Shown here one piece after another: positions 6,397-13,595 of a stretch of 21,893 nt of DNA. Position numbers and translations under genes: made by a program. Position 1 is the stretch's first letter. Every line of letters starts with the position of its first letter. The notes under the pieces were generated by a model. The model had not been told where the DNA came from. It did no database searches and was given only the letters and a program-made list of their open reading frames with translations. This stretch comes from a virus, in IMG/VR virus record IMGVR_UViG_3300035204_000146, positions 1-21,893 of that record. One strand, written 5' to 3'.

Positions 6397-6409
6397 GTGG
6401 GAGAAGTAT

Positions 6410-6985
6410 ATGAGTGGTAATCCTGCGGATTCCCAATTTGTACCGCCAGCCATTTTGAATAGAGCAGCAGGTTTTTATTATTTCGCTGACAATTTCACGC
6501 TGGAGACTACTGCCCCGATTGTGGAGTGGATTTTAAGTCACAACATGGCCCCTCAGAGTAAAAGGCTACCAAACCTGACTTTGATTATTAATAGCCCCGG
6601 AGGTAATCTACATAGCTGCTTTGCTTTGGTAGATGTTATGCGAGGAAGTGCCATCCCTATACACACAGTAGGTTTAGGAATGGTAGCTTCATGTGGTGTT
6701 GTAACCTTCATGGCAGGGGAGAAAGGTCATCGAACCCTCACCCCTAACACCTCCATCTTATCCCACCAATACTCTTGGGGATCAGGCGGTAAGGAACACG
6801 AACTACTTGCGAGAGTCAGGGAGTTTGAACTGTCTACGGAACGTATGATGGCTCATTATAGGAAATGTACAGGTCTGCCCAATAAGAAGATACGAGAGAT
6901 ACTTCTACCTGCGGAAGACGTATGGTTGTCAGCCCAAGATGCTGTGAAGCATGGAATAGCCGACAATATCAAAACCCTTAAATAG
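6410..6985 (+). CDS. ClpP-like serine protease (probable prohead protease)
   Basis: This 191-aa protein has the ClpP/crotonase fold signature. LIINSPGGN (58-66) forms the oxyanion strand. Ser94 in GMVASCG is the nucleophile, His119 in LSHQYSWG the base, and Asp170 in AEDVWLSAQDAVKHGIAD completes the triad at the usual ClpP spacing. There is no signal peptide, so it acts in the cytoplasm. Between portal and scaffold, a ClpP-type enzyme is most often the head maturation protease that trims scaffold or capsid proteins during assembly. A less likely alternative is a host-targeted protease. GGTGGGAG, a good ribosome site, lies about ten bases before the ATG. Confidence 0.85.
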   Translation: MSGNPADSQFVPPAILNRAAGFYYFADNFTLETTAPIVEWILSHNMAPQSKRLPNLTLIINSPGGNLHSCFALVDVMRGSAIPIHTVGLGMVASCGVVTFMAGEKGHRTLTPNTSILSHQYSWGSGGKEHELLARVREFELSTERMMAHYRKCTGLPNKKIREILLPAEDVWLSAQDAVKHGIADNIKTLK

Positions 6986-6994
6986 GAGTATGTT

Positions 6995-7087
6995 ATGAAG
7001 AAGTATATGCGTTATTTAATTATAGCGGCAGTAGTTGCCTTAGTTGCATATAATGTAATGTTTGGCGACCCTTCAGCCGCAGTGTAG
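6995..7087 (+). CDS. 30-residue single-span membrane peptide
   Basis: ATG at 6995 has a good Shine-Dalgarno (AGGAG, 6984-6988) and opens a 30-codon frame ending at TAG 7085-7087. The peptide has a basic start (MKKYMRY), one hydrophobic helix (LIIAAVVALVAYNVMF) and a short tail, so it should insert in the inner membrane with the N-terminus inside or act as a short secreted peptide. It ends one base before the next ATG, which suggests coupling to the membrane protease. Small phage peptides like this can be pinholins, chaperones of a membrane complex, or superinfection-exclusion factors. No homology is claimed; reality rests on the ribosome site, the hydrophobic pattern and the tight fit between neighbours. 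Confidence 0.6.
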   Translation: MKKYMRYLIIAAVVALVAYNVMFGDPSAAV

Positions 7088-7088
7088 T

Positions 7089-7874
7089 ATGCTTGCCTTA
7101 AAGAGGGCAGTACGAGAAGCAAGGATGCTTCTTTTTCTTATTGTTGCTATAGCAGGGGTCATCTTCGTACCTAAAGCGGTGAACACCTTTATTCTGGACA
7201 TAGAAGAAAGTGTTGAAGAAGAAGCCCCGCAAGAAGACCCCCAAGGGTTAGAGTTCAAGAAACTAAAGGGCAACCTCTATTCTTTAACAGGATCGGTACA
7301 GCAGGGAGACTGCGAGAAAATAGCGAAGGACTTTCCTGACCGCTTTGTCGTCATCTTAGAAAGTCCGGGGGGCAGTTTAGCAGAGGGGATATGCCTAGCC
7401 TCCCACTTAAAGATAAGAGAAGTAATTACAGTAGTAAGAGACACCCCCGTTTATAACGTGGAAGGTGAAGAGGTATACACCCCCGGATTGGTGGGCGAGG
7501 ACGGAGACAAGACAAGAGTAGTCTGTGCTTCAGCTTGCAGCTTAATGTTTCTGGGCGGTGACGAGAGATACCTTATGGGTAAAGTATGGTTCGGTATACA
7601 TGGGCCAAGAACCCCAGAAGAGCATTTGAGAAACCAAGGTAAGAGTGCCATAGAGCAGTCATCCTATCAAACAGCAGGAAGAATTTTACAGACACTAAAG
7701 CAACTAGGCGTAGAGAATGAGAGGGTACGGCTATCATTTATAATGATCCCCGGAACTTCCATGTATTGGCTAAATCCTAGAGATTTCAAACTGGAGCCAG
7801 ACTTAATTCACTTGGCCACCCACTATAAAGATTTCTGGGGTTTTAGCGCAGAGAACCTAAGAGCAGGTCTGTGA
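7089..7874 (+). CDS. Membrane-anchored ClpP-like (SppA/COG3904-type) protease
   Basis: I place the start at ATG 7089, one base after the small peptide's stop; a TTG nine codons upstream at 7062 would overlap it. The 261-aa protein has a basic N-terminus, one signal-anchor helix (MLLFLIVAIAGVIFVP, residues 13-28) and an acidic linker. The ClpP-like domain follows from about residue 60: VVILESPGGSLAEG (87-100), the nucleophile region CASACSLMFLGG with Ser148, and GIHGPR with His171. The C-x-S-x-C arrangement and following FLGG match periplasmic ClpP-like proteins of the COG3904 type. The domain should face the periplasm. It could process envelope proteins or peptides handled by the transporter next door. 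Activity is unproven; the aspartate is not certain (perhaps D232). Confidence 0.75.
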   Translation: MLALKRAVREARMLLFLIVAIAGVIFVPKAVNTFILDIEESVEEEAPQEDPQGLEFKKLKGNLYSLTGSVQQGDCEKIAKDFPDRFVVILESPGGSLAEGICLASHLKIREVITVVRDTPVYNVEGEEVYTPGLVGEDGDKTRVVCASACSLMFLGGDERYLMGKVWFGIHGPRTPEEHLRNQGKSAIEQSSYQTAGRILQTLKQLGVENERVRLSFIMIPGTSMYWLNPRDFKLEPDLIHLATHYKDFWGFSAENLRAGL

Positions 7875-7875
7875 T

Positions 7876-8892
7876 ATGATTAAGTCATTCTTCTTTTCAA
7901 AAAGTAATTTTCTGTACGCTTGGACATTCCTAGCAATCATAATGGGGATAACGTGGTATAACGTAGAAATCCTCGTAGCCCATAACCGTTTTGGGCGAGA
8001 GCTATGGGACGCTATTCAAGCCTACAACGAGACTAGGTTCTGGGATTTATTCTTGGGGTTTAGTCCTGATCGTTTTGCAGACATGGTAATGATGGACGAG
8101 GATGTAGTCCCGTCCTTCGTGGAGATATTAATTCTCTATACACCTCTATCAGTGTATGCCGTTTGGCAGACAAGGCGCTTTGTATTCCGCTGGAGAGAGG
8201 CTAACACCCACTATTATTTGGAACGGTGGCAGAAGTCTAATATCAAGATAGAAGGTGCCAGCCAACGCTTGCAGGAAGACCTGATGATCTTCGGCAAGAC
8301 TTTAGAATCCTTATTTGTAGGTTTCTTCTCAGCGGGTCTGGTGCTAGTGGCCTTCCTCCCAATTCTATGGGATTTGAGTGCGGCACTACCTATCTGGAAC
8401 GGTGAGATTATACCCGGCTTCCTAGTGTGGGTAGCCTTGGGGTTCAGTCTAGGTGGTACACTTATCAGCCTCTTGTTAGGTTGGTGGTTGCCCCGTCTAG
8501 AATATAATAATCAGGTGGTCGAAGCAGTATTCCGTAAGCGCCTAGTGCATTCAGAAGATGACTTTAGCGCAAGAGATATAAACACATTATTCCCCATGTT
8601 CGCAGCAGTTAAGCGTAACTACTACAAACTGTTTAACTACTACATGGGATTTGGCGTATGGCAGACAGCTTTCGGTCTGTGTTTAGGAAACGTAGCTCTG
8701 ATCGCCCTAGCCCCAGCGTACTTCCAACAACTAGTGACTTTGGGTGTACTACAGCAGGTCTTGGGTGCCTTCAGTCGAGTGGAGTCTTCTATGACATTCT
8801 TCATCGACAGGTGGACAACCATTGTGGATTTCCAATCGGTTATCATGCGTCTTCGGGAATTTAATAAAGCACTCAAGGAGGCAGGTGTATGA
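7876..8892 (+). CDS. SbmA/BacA-family inner-membrane peptide transporter
   Basis: This 338-aa multi-span membrane protein matches the SbmA/BacA family closely by memory of E. coli SbmA. FVFRWREA...YYLERWQ (102-119), IEGASQRLQEDLMIFGKTLE (125-144), LVAFLPIL (157-164), LEYNNQVVEAVFRK (208-221) and SEDD (226-229) all have near-identical counterparts there, as do AVKRNYYKLF and the FFIDRWTTIVD end. SbmA and BacA import antimicrobial peptides, microcins and modified peptides using the proton gradient, and lack an ATPase domain, as does this protein. It is about 70 residues shorter than SbmA (406 aa), mainly at the N-terminus, so one membrane helix may be missing. It starts one base after the protease stop and overlaps the next gene by ATGA. 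Function in a phage is unknown. Confidence 0.88.
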   Translation: MIKSFFFSKSNFLYAWTFLAIIMGITWYNVEILVAHNRFGRELWDAIQAYNETRFWDLFLGFSPDRFADMVMMDEDVVPSFVEILILYTPLSVYAVWQTRRFVFRWREANTHYYLERWQKSNIKIEGASQRLQEDLMIFGKTLESLFVGFFSAGLVLVAFLPILWDLSAALPIWNGEIIPGFLVWVALGFSLGGTLISLLLGWWLPRLEYNNQVVEAVFRKRLVHSEDDFSARDINTLFPMFAAVKRNYYKLFNYYMGFGVWQTAFGLCLGNVALIALAPAYFQQLVTLGVLQQVLGAFSRVESSMTFFIDRWTTIVDFQSVIMRLREFNKALKEAGV

Positions 8893-9347
8893 GTAAGTTC
8901 ATTAAGTGGTGGTTGGAGTTCTGTCTAATACTAGGGGGGACATATACCGCATACTCTTATGGACTTCTCACAATGGTCTTCGACAATGATATAACTAAGT
9001 TATCCTATTTAATACTAGGTTTATTCTTTGCCTTCACTGCCCTCCTTGGGTTGGACGTATTCGTGAAGAAGGTAGGTGATGGCCTGCTATATGTAGGTTG
9101 GTTTATATCTGAGATTCTACTGGGTCTTGGTATGCTGGGAACCGTCATAGGTTTTATCTACATGCTAAGTGGCTCTATGGGAGGTATGGACACCTCTGAC
9201 ACTGAAACGATCAAGGAAGCCCTCACCATAATGGCCTCTGGTATGGCAACTGCGCTCTATACAACGGCAATGGGTTTAATAACCAGCCTACTCCTAAAGG
9301 TGCAGTTAATTACTCTGGAGAATCCTAATGTCTCAGGCAAGGAGTAG
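8889..9347 (+). CDS. Minimal MotA/TolQ/ExbB-family proton channel subunit
   Basis: This 152-aa protein has four hydrophobic segments (about residues 7-31, 36-58, 66-95 and 111-140). The last two carry the family hallmarks: GMLGTVIGFIYML (81-93) and MASGMATALYTTAMGLITSL (115-134), corresponding to the pore helices of TolQ, ExbB and MotA. The large cytoplasmic loop of ExbB/TolQ and the long tail of ZorA are missing, so this is a stripped-down version. Such proteins form pentamers around a dimer of the MotB/ExbD type and turn proton flow into movement. A very strong ribosome site (AAGGAGG, 8876-8882) precedes the ATG. It overlaps the transporter by 4 bases and the partner gene by 20. Confidence 0.82.
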   Translation: MSKFIKWWLEFCLILGGTYTAYSYGLLTMVFDNDITKLSYLILGLFFAFTALLGLDVFVKKVGDGLLYVGWFISEILLGLGMLGTVIGFIYMLSGSMGGMDTSDTETIKEALTIMASGMATALYTTAMGLITSLLLKVQLITLENPNVSGKE

Positions 9348-9951
9348 GTTCAAGAGTTCTACAGCCTTTCAGGATTTATTATTTAATATGCTGCTGGGCT
9401 TTGTGTTTCTTTTTATGGTGGCTTTACTGCTTATCAACCCCATAACAAAGAAGGCAGATGTTCCCAAGAAGGCCGAGTATCTGATTACGCTCAGTTGGGC
9501 AGACGAGTCCACTACTGATGTAGATTTATGGGTTAAAAGCCCTAGCGGTAAGGTCGCTTCCTTCATCAACAAGAACGTGGGTCTACTGCATTTGGAGAGG
9601 GATGATCTAGGACTTAGAAACGATACTGTCACTGATCGTTTAGGTAAGGAACTTGAAGTTCGGATCAATGAAGAGACAGTCACACTACGAGGCATTGAGG
9701 CAGGTGAATACGAGGTCATGGCCCATATATATCGTAAGCCTGTAAATGAAACTGGTGGGGATATTACAATCAAGGTGATGCAGATTAATCCCTATGGCGT
9801 TAGATACATAGGCACCCTTTCTTTCACTTCAATGGGCCAAGCAATCAGTTTGGTGAGGTTTGAATTAGATGCAGACGGTAAGTTTTTGGGCTTTAATAAC
9901 TTACCTTCTAACTTCATCCCTTCCTATCGTGTTTCGGAGGCGGGGGCATGA
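9328..9951 (+). CDS. MotB/ExbD/ZorB-like partner with a DUF2135/YfaP-like domain
   Basis: This 207-aa protein has a short cytoplasmic start, then one membrane helix (FQDLLFNMLLGFVFLFMVAL, residues 14-33). Asp16 sits where MotB, ExbD and ZorB have their essential proton-relaying aspartate. The periplasmic part (about 48-190) is beta-rich and includes LSWADESTTDVDLWVKSPSG and LHLERDDLG, resembling DUF2135/YfaP-type domains rather than the peptidoglycan-binding OmpA-like domain of MotB. GGAG about ten bases before the ATG supports the start, which lies inside the end of the channel gene, as expected for a stoichiometric pair. The domain may grip an envelope target that the stator pulls or twists. 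The YfaP-like call is from motif resemblance only. Confidence 0.72.
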   Translation: MSQARSRFKSSTAFQDLLFNMLLGFVFLFMVALLLINPITKKADVPKKAEYLITLSWADESTTDVDLWVKSPSGKVASFINKNVGLLHLERDDLGLRNDTVTDRLGKELEVRINEETVTLRGIEAGEYEVMAHIYRKPVNETGGDITIKVMQINPYGVRYIGTLSFTSMGQAISLVRFELDADGKFLGFNNLPSNFIPSYRVSEAGA

Positions 9952-10427
9952 GCCTAGAAGAATATCAATTAATTATCCCTGCCTGTATCCTATTAACAGT
10001 GTGCGTATCTGTGTGGGCCTTACTGACCACCAAGAGGGTGAGGACACTAGTCATACTGATCCCCATCCTTGTTACGGCAGGGTATGGTTCTTTTAGTTCA
10101 GTAAATTCAATCTTAGGCTATCCCACCGAAGCCCACTTCACAGAAGAGCATGTGTACCTACACCACCGAGTAGATAAGGAAGCCGATAAAATCTACGTGT
10201 GGGCATTGACCAAAAGGCGCACCCCAAGGGCATTTGCTATCCCATACAGTAAAGATTCAGAGAAGAAATTGAACGAAGCCCAAGGGAAATCCCAAAAAGG
10301 CATCCCCCAGATTATTGAAGGTAAGGACAATAAGAACCGAAAGGTAAAAGAGTCCGACAGCAGGGACGAATCCCTTAGAATATATGATTTTAACATGAGC
10401 GCAGACATTCGTAAGAACGAGGATTAA
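9948..10427 (+). CDS. Two-helix membrane protein of unknown function
   Basis: This 159-aa protein overlaps the previous gene by ATGA. It has two membrane helices near the N-terminus (about residues 6-26 and 31-52), then a soluble region with a beta-like segment (HVYLHHRVDKEADKIYVWAL), a Lys/Arg-rich stretch and a charged tail with many Asp, Glu and Lys residues. I do not recognise a family. With a short loop between helices, both ends should be on the same side of the membrane. Its tight linkage to the channel pair suggests it is a third subunit or a regulator of that complex, perhaps a cytoplasmic plug or adaptor, but this is inference. Confidence 0.72.
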   Translation: MSLEEYQLIIPACILLTVCVSVWALLTTKRVRTLVILIPILVTAGYGSFSSVNSILGYPTEAHFTEEHVYLHHRVDKEADKIYVWALTKRRTPRAFAIPYSKDSEKKLNEAQGKSQKGIPQIIEGKDNKNRKVKESDSRDESLRIYDFNMSADIRKNED

Positions 10428-10430
10428 TTA

Positions 10431-13400
10431 GTGAGTTTAACACCTACAGAACTAGTAAAAAATGCAGCCAAACACGCTGAGAATGAGAGTAAGACAGGTT
10501 ATGACCCTGTATCAGGCGTTTGGTTTTCTCACGATTCCCCTGAAGGAGGTTTAGCTACGATTGGCTACGGACACAAAGGGGGTTCCTCAGATGAAGTAGC
10601 CTCATGGAGTATAGGTGGTTTAACGGACGAGCAGGTCAATAAGAACTTTGTTAAGGATTGGGATGAAGCCTTCCAAGTTGCTGCCAACCAATACAATGCA
10701 GCCCATGAAGATTCCTTCTCTGACCTGCCAGAAATAGGCCAAGCCCTACTTTCTGAAATTGCCTTCAATGTAGGTGGGGTAAACAATAGTTCAGGAGGGT
10801 TCGGCTGGCCTAACCTAGTGAAAGCTATCAAGGAAGACGACCTTGCTGGTATGAAGAAAGAGATTAATCGCACGTACACTGACTCTGATGGCAATGAACA
10901 TTCAATGGACAGACGTGTAGGCTTTCTACGTGATGCCATAGATGACTCTGTGGGTGCGCCTCTGACAGGTAACGCCCCCAACCCAGCTAACGGTGAAGAC
11001 GTAGGTTCCATAGAAGCCTTACCTGATAGTTACAGCCACAAGATAGGCGACTTCTTATCTGGTCTTATGGGAGGCAACCAAGCCACACGAAATCGCAGAA
11101 CACAAACAATTAGTGGCCTGATGGATTGGACACCTGTGGGTGGTAAGGATTTATGGGATGAAGGGAAGTGGGAGGCCGAGAAGGGTGATGTAGGTGACGG
11201 TGCTTTAGATATGTTCATGGGAGGTCTAGACTTTATACCCGGAGCTACCGTTGTAACTAAACCTGCAAAAGCAGCGGCAAAAGTAGTTTCTGAAGGTGCC
11301 GATAAAGCTACAGGCTTAATGTCAGCCAAACTAAGGGAGGCAGGCGAGAGCCTGTTCACCCCAGAGTCTATGGCTGCGGCTAAACGTGTTGCTGGTAGCG
11401 ACAGGTCTAGGGAAACCTTAGTGTACATGCCCCCCGAAGATTTCCTTAAAATGGCTGACGCAGGAGAAGATGCGAGCAAGGCGGCAGGAGTCAAGGCTCT
11501 ACGGGAAGAGGGTAAGCAATTCTCAGATGTGCCGTTTCTCAGCATAAGTGATAAAGGGGAAGGTACAGTGCAGGTAGTGGGGCATGAGGGCCGCCACCGA
11601 GCAAGGCAAGCCATCGAAGAAGGTGTGGCTACTATGCCTGTACGTTTAAACAGCGTGTACCACCCTAAAGGTGGGTATGAGTTTAGATGGGGGGAGTTAG
11701 CAGACGAGCCTATAGAGTCCCGTCCATACAAAATGGTAAGTGAGGACGGGGAGACTACTTTAGCCCTACCTAAGAATGAATATTTCCCCTACGAAACATT
11801 GGATTCAGTGCCTGCCACAACTTCAGAACCTGAAGATATATTAGGCGCACTCGTAGAAGATGCCGAGGTAGAGGCCATAAATGCTGCCGCAGGTGTATCT
11901 GATCTCCCTAGAGCAACGTCCCGAATAGACGAGGCTAAAGGTTGGGATTGGTCAACAGAAAAACCACAAGAATTTAACACTGGAGGAATGGTAGGCATGA
12001 TGACACCTACGCTAGAAGTAATCGTAGGACATGACGAGGAATCAGGCAATCCTATTCCAGCAGGTTCTACAGACAAAGAAGTACGAGATGATGTTGAAGC
12101 ACTACTTAGTGAAGGTGAGTATGTCTTGCCTGCTGATGTAGTTAAGTGGCATGGCTTAAAGCACATCCAAGAGATGCGTAACGAGGCTAAAGCTGGCCTT
12201 ATGTGCATGTGTATGGATGGCCAGATCAAGACACCTGAGAGTGACGAAGACTACGAAGAGCCTTCGGATGATGAAGATGTAGAAGTTACTGAAGAAGGCA
12301 ATGAGATTGAAGTAGTCGATAACACTGACGAGAAGAAGATCAAGGCGGCTGATGGTGGTCTTGTTACTTCTGGAGAAGATGGAGGCACTTCCTCTCTTGG
12401 TTACTTGATCCGTAGACTGGTACGAGGCCCAGATGGTCGTATGATTGTACGTTACTTTGATCCCCAGACAGGTATGTACGTAGATGATCCTACAGGCTAC
12501 GAAGTATTAGATCAAAGTGCTTACAACTCACTAACTGGCCCCGGTATGCAGGAACCTGATTCAGGTGAGGACACGGCAGCAGAAGAAGTGGTCGAGGAGG
12601 CTGCTACTACTAGTGGAGGTGGTAGTGACAAGGATGATGATAACTCATTTGAGGCTGCTACCCCAATAGAACGTAACCAGTGGAACGACTACGGCTTTAG
12701 TGACCCTAACACTCTAGCAACTATGGGTGCAGGGCTATTAGGTGGCCCTCTTGTCGGTGGTCTTACTCGGTTTGGCCAAAGCCACAATAATGCTGAAGCT
12801 GTAGATGCAGCCAGAGAAGACTTAGGCATGGAAGGCTTAGGCTGGTGGGATAAAGTCAAGGGTGGTTTCACAGGTAAATATAATACAGGTGAAATTGGCC
12901 GAGGAACCATAGGTGAGAACGACTATACGGCTGGGTTCGGTGGCCGAGTTCTGACTGATGAAGATGGTAATCAGATCACTACCCTAACCCCTAACGAATA
13001 CAAGAAGCGTACAGCGGCACAAGACATTGATATTAGCAAGCTGCCCAGCGCCACCGATAGCTCTTCAGGTTCTGGCATTATGTCGAGTCAAGTTAACGAC
13101 ACCCCTACTTCCATTTCCGATGATGTAGCAGAGAAAGAAGATGGGTACAGTACTCCGGCCTACACTGACCACAGTAGTGATGTAGAGATGGACACTGACT
13201 TTGGTTCTTGGTGGGATGACATAGAGACTGACGAGGTAGAGGTAGACACAGCACCCCATGCTGAAATTTCAGGGGAGTCCCGCTACTTTGTTCATGACAT
13301 GGAGCCAGAGGACTACACCTTAGAGGCTGGCCTTGTCCCTAGAGACACTGCCTCCCCAACGGACGAAATACAAGAAGTTGCGGATACCTTAGTCAACTGG

Positions 13401-13595
13401 GGTACAGACGAACCCTCTGAGGAGTTCTTTGAAGATCAGATGGTACGAGAAGGTATCTTCCAAAGGGGTGTCTTAGAAAACGGACTCAAGCGTGATCCTG
13501 TCCCGTCAGGCTCCCCCAAGACTAAGCAAGAGGTTAAAGACAGCCTCGACTACGCCAAGGAAAAATACGGCTTCCTTGCTAAAGGTGGTCGCTAA
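10431..13595 (+). CDS. Multidomain internal virion protein with N-terminal lysozyme domain
   Basis: This 1054-aa protein starts at GTG 10431, three bases after the previous stop. Residues 1-175 form a phage lysozyme-like domain: Glu17 or Glu19 as catalytic acid, TIGYGHK (43-49), and the C-terminal helix RRVGFLRDA. An Ala/Gly-rich linker follows. Residues 330-410 resemble a ParB-like nuclease or sulfiredoxin-type fold, with VVGHEGRHRAR at 382-392. A motif common in aquatic phage structural proteins (VEALLSEGEYVLPADVVKWH, 555-574) precedes a very acidic, low-complexity C-terminus ending FLAKGGR. Such giant proteins are usually packaged and ejected, and the lysozyme opens peptidoglycan during infection. 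It could alternatively serve in lysis, since no separate endolysin is visible. ParB-like activity is not shown. Confidence 0.75.
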   Translation: MSLTPTELVKNAAKHAENESKTGYDPVSGVWFSHDSPEGGLATIGYGHKGGSSDEVASWSIGGLTDEQVNKNFVKDWDEAFQVAANQYNAAHEDSFSDLPEIGQALLSEIAFNVGGVNNSSGGFGWPNLVKAIKEDDLAGMKKEINRTYTDSDGNEHSMDRRVGFLRDAIDDSVGAPLTGNAPNPANGEDVGSIEALPDSYSHKIGDFLSGLMGGNQATRNRRTQTISGLMDWTPVGGKDLWDEGKWEAEKGDVGDGALDMFMGGLDFIPGATVVTKPAKAAAKVVSEGADKATGLMSAKLREAGESLFTPESMAAAKRVAGSDRSRETLVYMPPEDFLKMADAGEDASKAAGVKALREEGKQFSDVPFLSISDKGEGTVQVVGHEGRHRARQAIEEGVATMPVRLNSVYHPKGGYEFRWGELADEPIESRPYKMVSEDGETTLALPKNEYFPYETLDSVPATTSEPEDILGALVEDAEVEAINAAAGVSDLPRATSRIDEAKGWDWSTEKPQEFNTGGMVGMMTPTLEVIVGHDEESGNPIPAGSTDKEVRDDVEALLSEGEYVLPADVVKWHGLKHIQEMRNEAKAGLMCMCMDGQIKTPESDEDYEEPSDDEDVEVTEEGNEIEVVDNTDEKKIKAADGGLVTSGEDGGTSSLGYLIRRLVRGPDGRMIVRYFDPQTGMYVDDPTGYEVLDQSAYNSLTGPGMQEPDSGEDTAAEEVVEEAATTSGGGSDKDDDNSFEAATPIERNQWNDYGFSDPNTLATMGAGLLGGPLVGGLTRFGQSHNNAEAVDAAREDLGMEGLGWWDKVKGGFTGKYNTGEIGRGTIGENDYTAGFGGRVLTDEDGNQITTLTPNEYKKRTAAQDIDISKLPSATDSSSGSGIMSSQVNDTPTSISDDVAEKEDGYSTPAYTDHSSDVEMDTDFGSWWDDIETDEVEVDTAPHAEISGESRYFVHDMEPEDYTLEAGLVPRDTASPTDEIQEVADTLVNWGTDEPSEEFFEDQMVREGIFQRGVLENGLKRDPVPSGSPKTKQEVKDSLDYAKEKYGFLAKGGR

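Follow-up and report, generated by a model that had tools for sequence, protein, structure and literature searches.

The whole stretch of DNA analyzed here, which we call the window, comprises positions 1 to 21,893 of the IMG/VR virus record IMGVR_UViG_3300035204_000146. It comes from a marine podovirus of the HMO-2011 type, with a portal protein about 56% identical to that of HMO-2011 and 63 to 65% identical to those of the Roseobacter phages CRP-3 and CRP-235. In podoviruses of this type, the genes for the portal, a 71-amino-acid (aa) protein, a large internal protein, the scaffold, and the capsid are contiguous and in that order, as we found in CRP-3, CRP-235, HMO-2011, and 44 further IMG/VR contigs. 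These 44 relatives came from a scan with the capsid protein and have both a portal and a capsid gene. The window alone carries six extra genes between the two, all on the plus strand (6410 to 10427): clpP1, clpP2, sbmA, a tolQ-like gene, a tolR-like gene, and g9948. No gene of this cassette lies between portal and capsid in any of the 44 contigs or in the three isolates.

The insert is ~4 kb long and separates the 71-aa gene from the gene for the large internal protein. Comparison with the empty site placed the left junction at 6397 to 6409, between the stop of the 71-aa gene (6396) and the ATG of clpP1 (6410), and the right junction at 10428 to 10430, between the stop of g9948 (10427) and the GTG start of the next gene (10431). 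Because the site is empty in the 44 relatives and the isolates, the six genes appear to have been inserted as a block at a precise point. The original prediction had placed a phage-encoded sbmA in the head operon. The gene is indeed phage encoded and lies between the portal and capsid genes, so the description is correct by position; it is incorrect by descent, since the cassette is missing from all of these relatives. We also rejected ClpP1 as a head maturation protease because it is not in the head gene set of this lineage and travels with the cassette.

The SbmA-like transporter

The third gene of the insert, sbmA (7876 to 8892), encodes a predicted H+-coupled peptide transporter of 338 aa, a compact SbmA/BacA-like (SLiPT) protein. 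In host-microbe studies, SbmA/BacA importers are known to determine bacterial survival of antimicrobial peptides. The gene had been assigned to this family from short motifs, all of which are present (FRWR, YY..W, IEGASQRLQED, AFLP, VVEA.FRK, and SEDD), and the Pfam search then suggested confirmed the assignment. The product matched SbmA_BacA (PF05992) with 244.7 bits against a cutoff of 24 (E = 2.1e-72) over profile positions 6 to 314 of 315, which is the whole transport core. A single-sequence phmmer search matched the structure of Escherichia coli SbmA, 7p34 (E = 5.9e-48), with residues 5 to 333 of the query on residues 76 to 393 of SbmA. As in other SbmA/BacA proteins, no ABC ATPase or nucleotide-binding domain was matched by Pfam or NCBIfam profiles anywhere in the 338 aa.

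The phage protein differs from SbmA in several respects. Its alignment to SbmA starts at SbmA residue 72 to 76, and the peripheral helices TM0a and TM0b are absent. Two NCBIfam models matched, both under their equivalog cutoffs: the SbmA equivalog NF008306 gave 215 bits against a cutoff of 492, and NF009036 (PRK12369, putative transporter), the best match (E = 1e-81), gave 275 bits against 385. The latter model describes short bacterial SbmA relatives of 323 to 336 aa, the same length class as the phage protein, which is about 39 to 40% identical to them; unlike the phage gene, the bacterial copies have no cassette neighbors in the flanking sequence of about 1.5 kb to either side. Because the TM0 helices are missing and the score is below the NCBIfam cutoff, we class the product, as far as its sequence goes, as a compact and divergent family member rather than SbmA itself. 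The sole PHROGs phage family that it matched is the remote PHROG 11436 (E = 2e-10), of unknown function and with no function named.

The proton-ladder glutamates of E. coli SbmA are E193, E203, E269, E276, E287, and E378 (PMC13316013). Their equivalents in the window are E134, E144, E209, E216, E227, and D318, so the acidic ladder is kept as five Glu and one Asp. The equivalents of E193, E269, E276, and E287 were invariant across 58 distinct phage sequences. At the position of E203 the window has Glu, but 42 of 47 close relatives have Gln; at that of E378, 40 of these relatives have Asp, 4 have Glu, and 2 have Lys.

The ratio dN/dS for sbmA was 0.03 to 0.11 in six of seven pairs of relatives; in the seventh pair the synonymous sites were saturated. 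Purifying selection was also seen by this measure on clpP2 and tolR. The start and stop of sbmA had been described as interlocked with both neighbors, which is accurate downstream, where the stop overlaps the start of the tolQ-like gene (ATGA at 8889 to 8892). Upstream there is adjacency without overlap, a single base separating the clpP2 stop (7874) from the sbmA start (7876). The tolQ-tolR and tolR-g9948 pairs overlap too. The family matches, the gene spacing, and the dN/dS values together indicate that sbmA is a functioning, selected gene.

We found no support for a recent host-derived copy. The closest bacterial sequences among 398 Pseudomonadota genomes were 36 to 41% identical to the product, and 37 close phage SbmA sequences formed one clade (SH-aLRT, 99) apart from all bacterial sequences sampled, in a quick tree with long branches and unsure rooting. 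A cassette resident in bacteria was likewise rejected, because clpP2, when searched for in 84,980 genomes of bacteria and archaea, had as its sole match a phage contig inside a metagenome-assembled genome (MAG). As far as sampled, the clpP2-sbmA pair thus appears to be phage specific. The contig PBDY01000027.1, filed under a Gammaproteobacteria MAG, comes from a T4-like phage and includes the cassette.

ClpP1 and the putative ClpP-fold protein ClpP2

The first gene of the insert, clpP1 (6410 to 6985), encodes a cytoplasmic-type ClpP serine protease of 191 aa (Pfam CLP_protease, E = 6e-29) in which Ser94 and His119 are conserved. Its homologs adjoin the cassette in 13 loci of the early set and in 23 of the 76 loci found with the tolR-like gene (see below).

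The next gene, clpP2 (7062 to 7874), encodes a 270-aa protein with an N-terminal membrane anchor and a putative ClpP fold. Ser157, His180, and the cysteines at positions 84, 111, 155, and 159 are invariant in the alignment. The N-terminal membrane helix and the four invariant cysteines, with the topology read from sequence, suggest that the protein is periplasmic. There was no significant match to Pfam, and a sequence profile search found no solved relative. A low-confidence model (pLDDT, 61) gave ClpP structures as the best Foldseek matches, with E. coli ClpP at the top (E = 4e-4), and hhalign comparison of the clpP2 profile with ClpP1 gave 86.5%; for the third ClpP triad residue, ClpP2 has no clear equivalent. 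We regard ClpP2 as a protein of modeled ClpP fold that is probably a peptidase. A membrane protease as the neighbor of sbmA was part of the original prediction, and in other phages this neighbor is conserved.

A putative proton-stator trio

The tolQ-like gene (8889 to 9347) encodes a small stator subunit (152 aa) of the MotA/TolQ/ExbB family. It matched Pfam MotA_ExbB with 28.7 bits against a cutoff of 22.9 (E = 1.3e-6); all 15 members tested also matched this family, and in the PDB the family profile matched MotA, 8gqy (E = 2e-5). The tolR/MotB-like gene (9328 to 9951) encodes 207 aa with one transmembrane (TM) helix, bearing Asp16, followed by a beta-sandwich domain. Asp16 was invariant in 15 sequences, in an alignment that included homologs from Rhizobium phages. 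In the AF2 model (pLDDT, 75), a helix at residues 11 to 36 is followed by an all-beta region, whose top fold match was 2qng (E = 3e-4), a structure that we take to be TerD-like. A sequence profile search found no solved relative of this domain. The third gene, g9948 (9948 to 10427), encodes 159 aa with two predicted TM helices and a soluble domain.

These proteins resemble the TolQR, ExbBD, and MotAB stators in the Pfam match of the first protein and in the single TM helix with invariant Asp of the second. They differ in that the tolQ-like protein has only about 150 aa, the tolR-like protein has no Pfam match and its beta-sandwich is not a TolR, ExbD, or OmpA-like periplasmic domain, and the third member, g9948, has no significant match in Pfam and belongs to no known family.

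The trio is more widespread than the transporter. We scanned with the tolR-like gene using a marine-only alignment; an alignment with Rhizobium rows had no sufficiently conserved stretch. Among 76 distinct loci, tolQ was a companion in 73, g9948 in 71, and sbmA in only 30, and so we rejected the idea that the trio is always tied to SbmA. TolR-like homologs that are 26 to 33% identical occur in 27 records of isolated Rhizobium and Sinorhizobium phages, including the temperate phage 16-3. In the six rhizobial phages examined, the gene is flanked by TolQ-like and g9948-like genes, all annotated as hypothetical. The trio of 16-3 consists of p038, p040, and p042 (locus L035, 5271 to 7132), and further rhizobial loci are L037, L038, and L040. 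In 16-3, NV1.1.1, and RHph_X2_25, a trypsin-like protease gene lies just upstream of the trio. These distributions suggest that the trio is an older, wider phage module and that clpP2-sbmA is an addition to it. Because most trio loci are without sbmA, the main job of the trio is probably not peptide import.

The cassette in other phages

With SbmA and ClpP2 as queries, three scans of IMG/VR turned up 56 distinct loci, of which six are rhizobial. In 37 of the 38 distinct loci that have both genes, clpP2 is directly before sbmA; in the 38th a small open reading frame lies between them. There are two main gene orders, clpP2-sbmA-tolQ-tolR-g9948-clpP1 and tolQ-tolR-g9948-c5-clpP2-sbmA. In five loci (L108, L118, L120, L121, and L154) the six genes of the first order form an isolated operon running against the surrounding strand. 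The c5 gene, which in one cassette type immediately precedes clpP2, encodes 90 to 94 aa that begin with a hydrophobic segment and include a conserved pair of cysteines. This protein (L022, 8759 to 9043, and 14 other loci of the early set) is possibly a secreted partner or substrate.

At E < 1e-8, no genes other than those of the cassette are common to the window and the cassette loci that we fetched. The carriers include marine phages unrelated to the window, some of them jumbo phages of over 300 kb that bear the T4-type capsid protein Gp23. We found Gp23 in 10 of 18 long records tested, including those of 328, 342, 347, and 192 kb; the records behind L363, L021, L169, and L012 carry it. The cassettes adjoin DNA replication genes in T4-type phages and packaging genes in the window. 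In the 342-kb phage, clpP2-sbmA and the trio lie at separate places; the 347-kb phage, whose sbmA is divergent, also has the trio at another site.

Two other arrangements of phage sbmA were found. In three jumbo-type phages (L359, 4385 to 5692; L362, 9145 to 10415; L363, 9289 to 10623) the trio is followed by clpS and then by a different sbmA (E about 1e-133). In the two of these loci tested, clpS matched its Pfam family with E values of 3e-31 and 3e-27, and a canonical clpP is nearby in L359 and L363. In the same two loci dnaK lies just upstream of the trio. We infer that these three loci join a different SbmA lineage to a different Clp component and so constitute a second link between SbmA and Clp proteolysis. 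The other arrangement is a divergent group of phage sbmA genes (L029 to L033 and L160 to L171), 36 to 39% identical, many of them beside a T4-type clamp-loader gene. Within the sequence at hand there is neither clpP2 nor the trio near these genes, and near L029 to L033 no protease or stator of any kind.

A possible peptide-disposal line

We give a probability of roughly 0.5 to the reading that sbmA is a gene of a mobile, phage-specific cassette that would serve, most likely, as an envelope peptide-disposal or salvage line. From the cassette and the family assignments observed above, we infer its activities and purpose as follows. Anchored ClpP2 would cut polypeptides in the periplasm. The SbmA-like transporter, given its family and its acidic residues, would import the resulting peptides with protons. 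ClpP1, or in other phages host ClpAP supplied by phage ClpS, would destroy them in the cytoplasm. The trio, with its stator-family subunit, would couple the proton gradient to the envelope, serving the peptide line among other uses. That the peptides would be fed to proteolysis is proposed because the clpP2-sbmA order is fixed and because of the clpS-sbmA arrangement. An importer handling the products of the neighboring protease is the best surviving idea of the original prediction.

The benefit to the phage would be either that membrane-damaging peptides are cleared or that amino acids are recycled for virions. BacA lowers the membrane damage caused by host peptides in Sinorhizobium (PMC3186793), so that removing membrane-active peptides would be a plausible purpose for the line. 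We lean slightly toward clearing, although our analysis does not separate the two. Several observations weigh against a peptide line. The equivalent of E203 is Gln in most close relatives, and coupling could be altered in these proteins; clpP1 is not always nearby; the sbmA genes of L029 to L033 have no protease or stator within the sequence at hand; most trio loci are without sbmA; and ClpP2 is a protein without a significant family match or a clear third triad residue, for which the model is poor. A stronger version, which we hold more tentatively, is that the stator trio, the anchored periplasmic ClpP-type protease, and the SbmA-type importer act together as a self-contained, horizontally moving trans-envelope machine of marine phages. 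Such a machine would take periplasmic polypeptides into the cytoplasm for destruction, countering peptide-based host defense or acting as a nutrient line.

Alternative explanations

The best of the alternatives, and still an unlikely one, is that sbmA is a stand-alone auxiliary importer of extracellular oligopeptides or similar compounds for a starved marine host, with the proteases and the stator doing separate jobs. The carriers are marine, the large phages hold many metabolic genes around their sbmA loci, and the divergent sbmA lineage has no proteases or stator nearby. However, the fixed clpP2-sbmA order and the independent clpS-sbmA arrangement are not what separate jobs would predict, and the SbmA family is known for importing antimicrobial peptides, not for supplying nutrients.

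Next, and quite unlikely, is a role in superinfection exclusion or competition between phages, in which the stator and the membrane protease would remodel the envelope or destroy proteins injected by a second phage, with SbmA removing debris or sensitizing cells to competitors. Cargo that is membrane localized, mobile, and patchy would suit such a role, as would the presumably TerD-like fold match of the beta domain. For the Ter genes of jumbo phages, a role in countering superinfecting phages has been proposed (PMC7824862). The tolQ-like protein also matched ZorA of the Zorya system weakly (PADLOC, E = 3e-6), but this match reflects the common MotA/TolQ/ExbB core, and PADLOC detected no ZorB, ZorC, ZorD, or effector partner in the cassette, which is therefore not a Zorya system by this test. 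Moreover, exclusion has no obvious place for a peptide importer.

An aid to lysis or envelope breakdown is improbable. The phage stator would compete with the host Tol-Pal system and, with the protease, weaken the outer membrane, and SbmA would be incidental. The occurrence of the trio in both lytic and temperate rhizobial phages, and of the trypsin-like protease upstream of it in three of them, fits this role, but the cassettes adjoin replication or packaging genes, and the fixed clpP2-sbmA pair would be unexplained.

Least probable is an assembly chimera in which a podovirus contig was wrongly fused to the cassette, in this record only: an exact search for either junction found no second record and none of the 44 relatives has the insert, but near-copies of the record may be missing from the searched set, the GC content is even through both junctions, with window sbmA at 46% GC like its own flanks (34 to 43% in most other carriers), the genes keep their orientation and stay closely spaced across both junctions, and the cassette's existence does not depend on this window.

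Significance

We found no open-access literature in PMC on SbmA in phages or on the cassette. Jumbo phages have been reported to encode Clp protease subunits and adaptors, each of them singly (PMC7824862); here, in contrast, they are tied to an SbmA family importer and a membrane-anchored partner of putative ClpP fold. The phage importers constitute a separate clade. They are linked to proteases and to a phage proton-motor trio that is widespread and unannotated. If the peptide-disposal reading is correct, phages would manage peptide traffic over the inner membrane during infection, and peptide-based defenses or peptide nutrition would be forces in marine infections. Rhizobium phages that can be cultured, 16-3 among them, also carry the trio, and trio and importer can be tested in laboratory strains.

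Elsewhere in the window, an endonuclease VII-like gene (884 to 1309; Pfam, E = 1e-13) lies upstream of the packaging genes. The large protein encoded directly after the insert (10431 to 13595) carries a lysozyme-like stretch at its N terminus, and in the relatives its homologs range from about 184 to 1421 aa and have a conserved core near residues 510 to 675.
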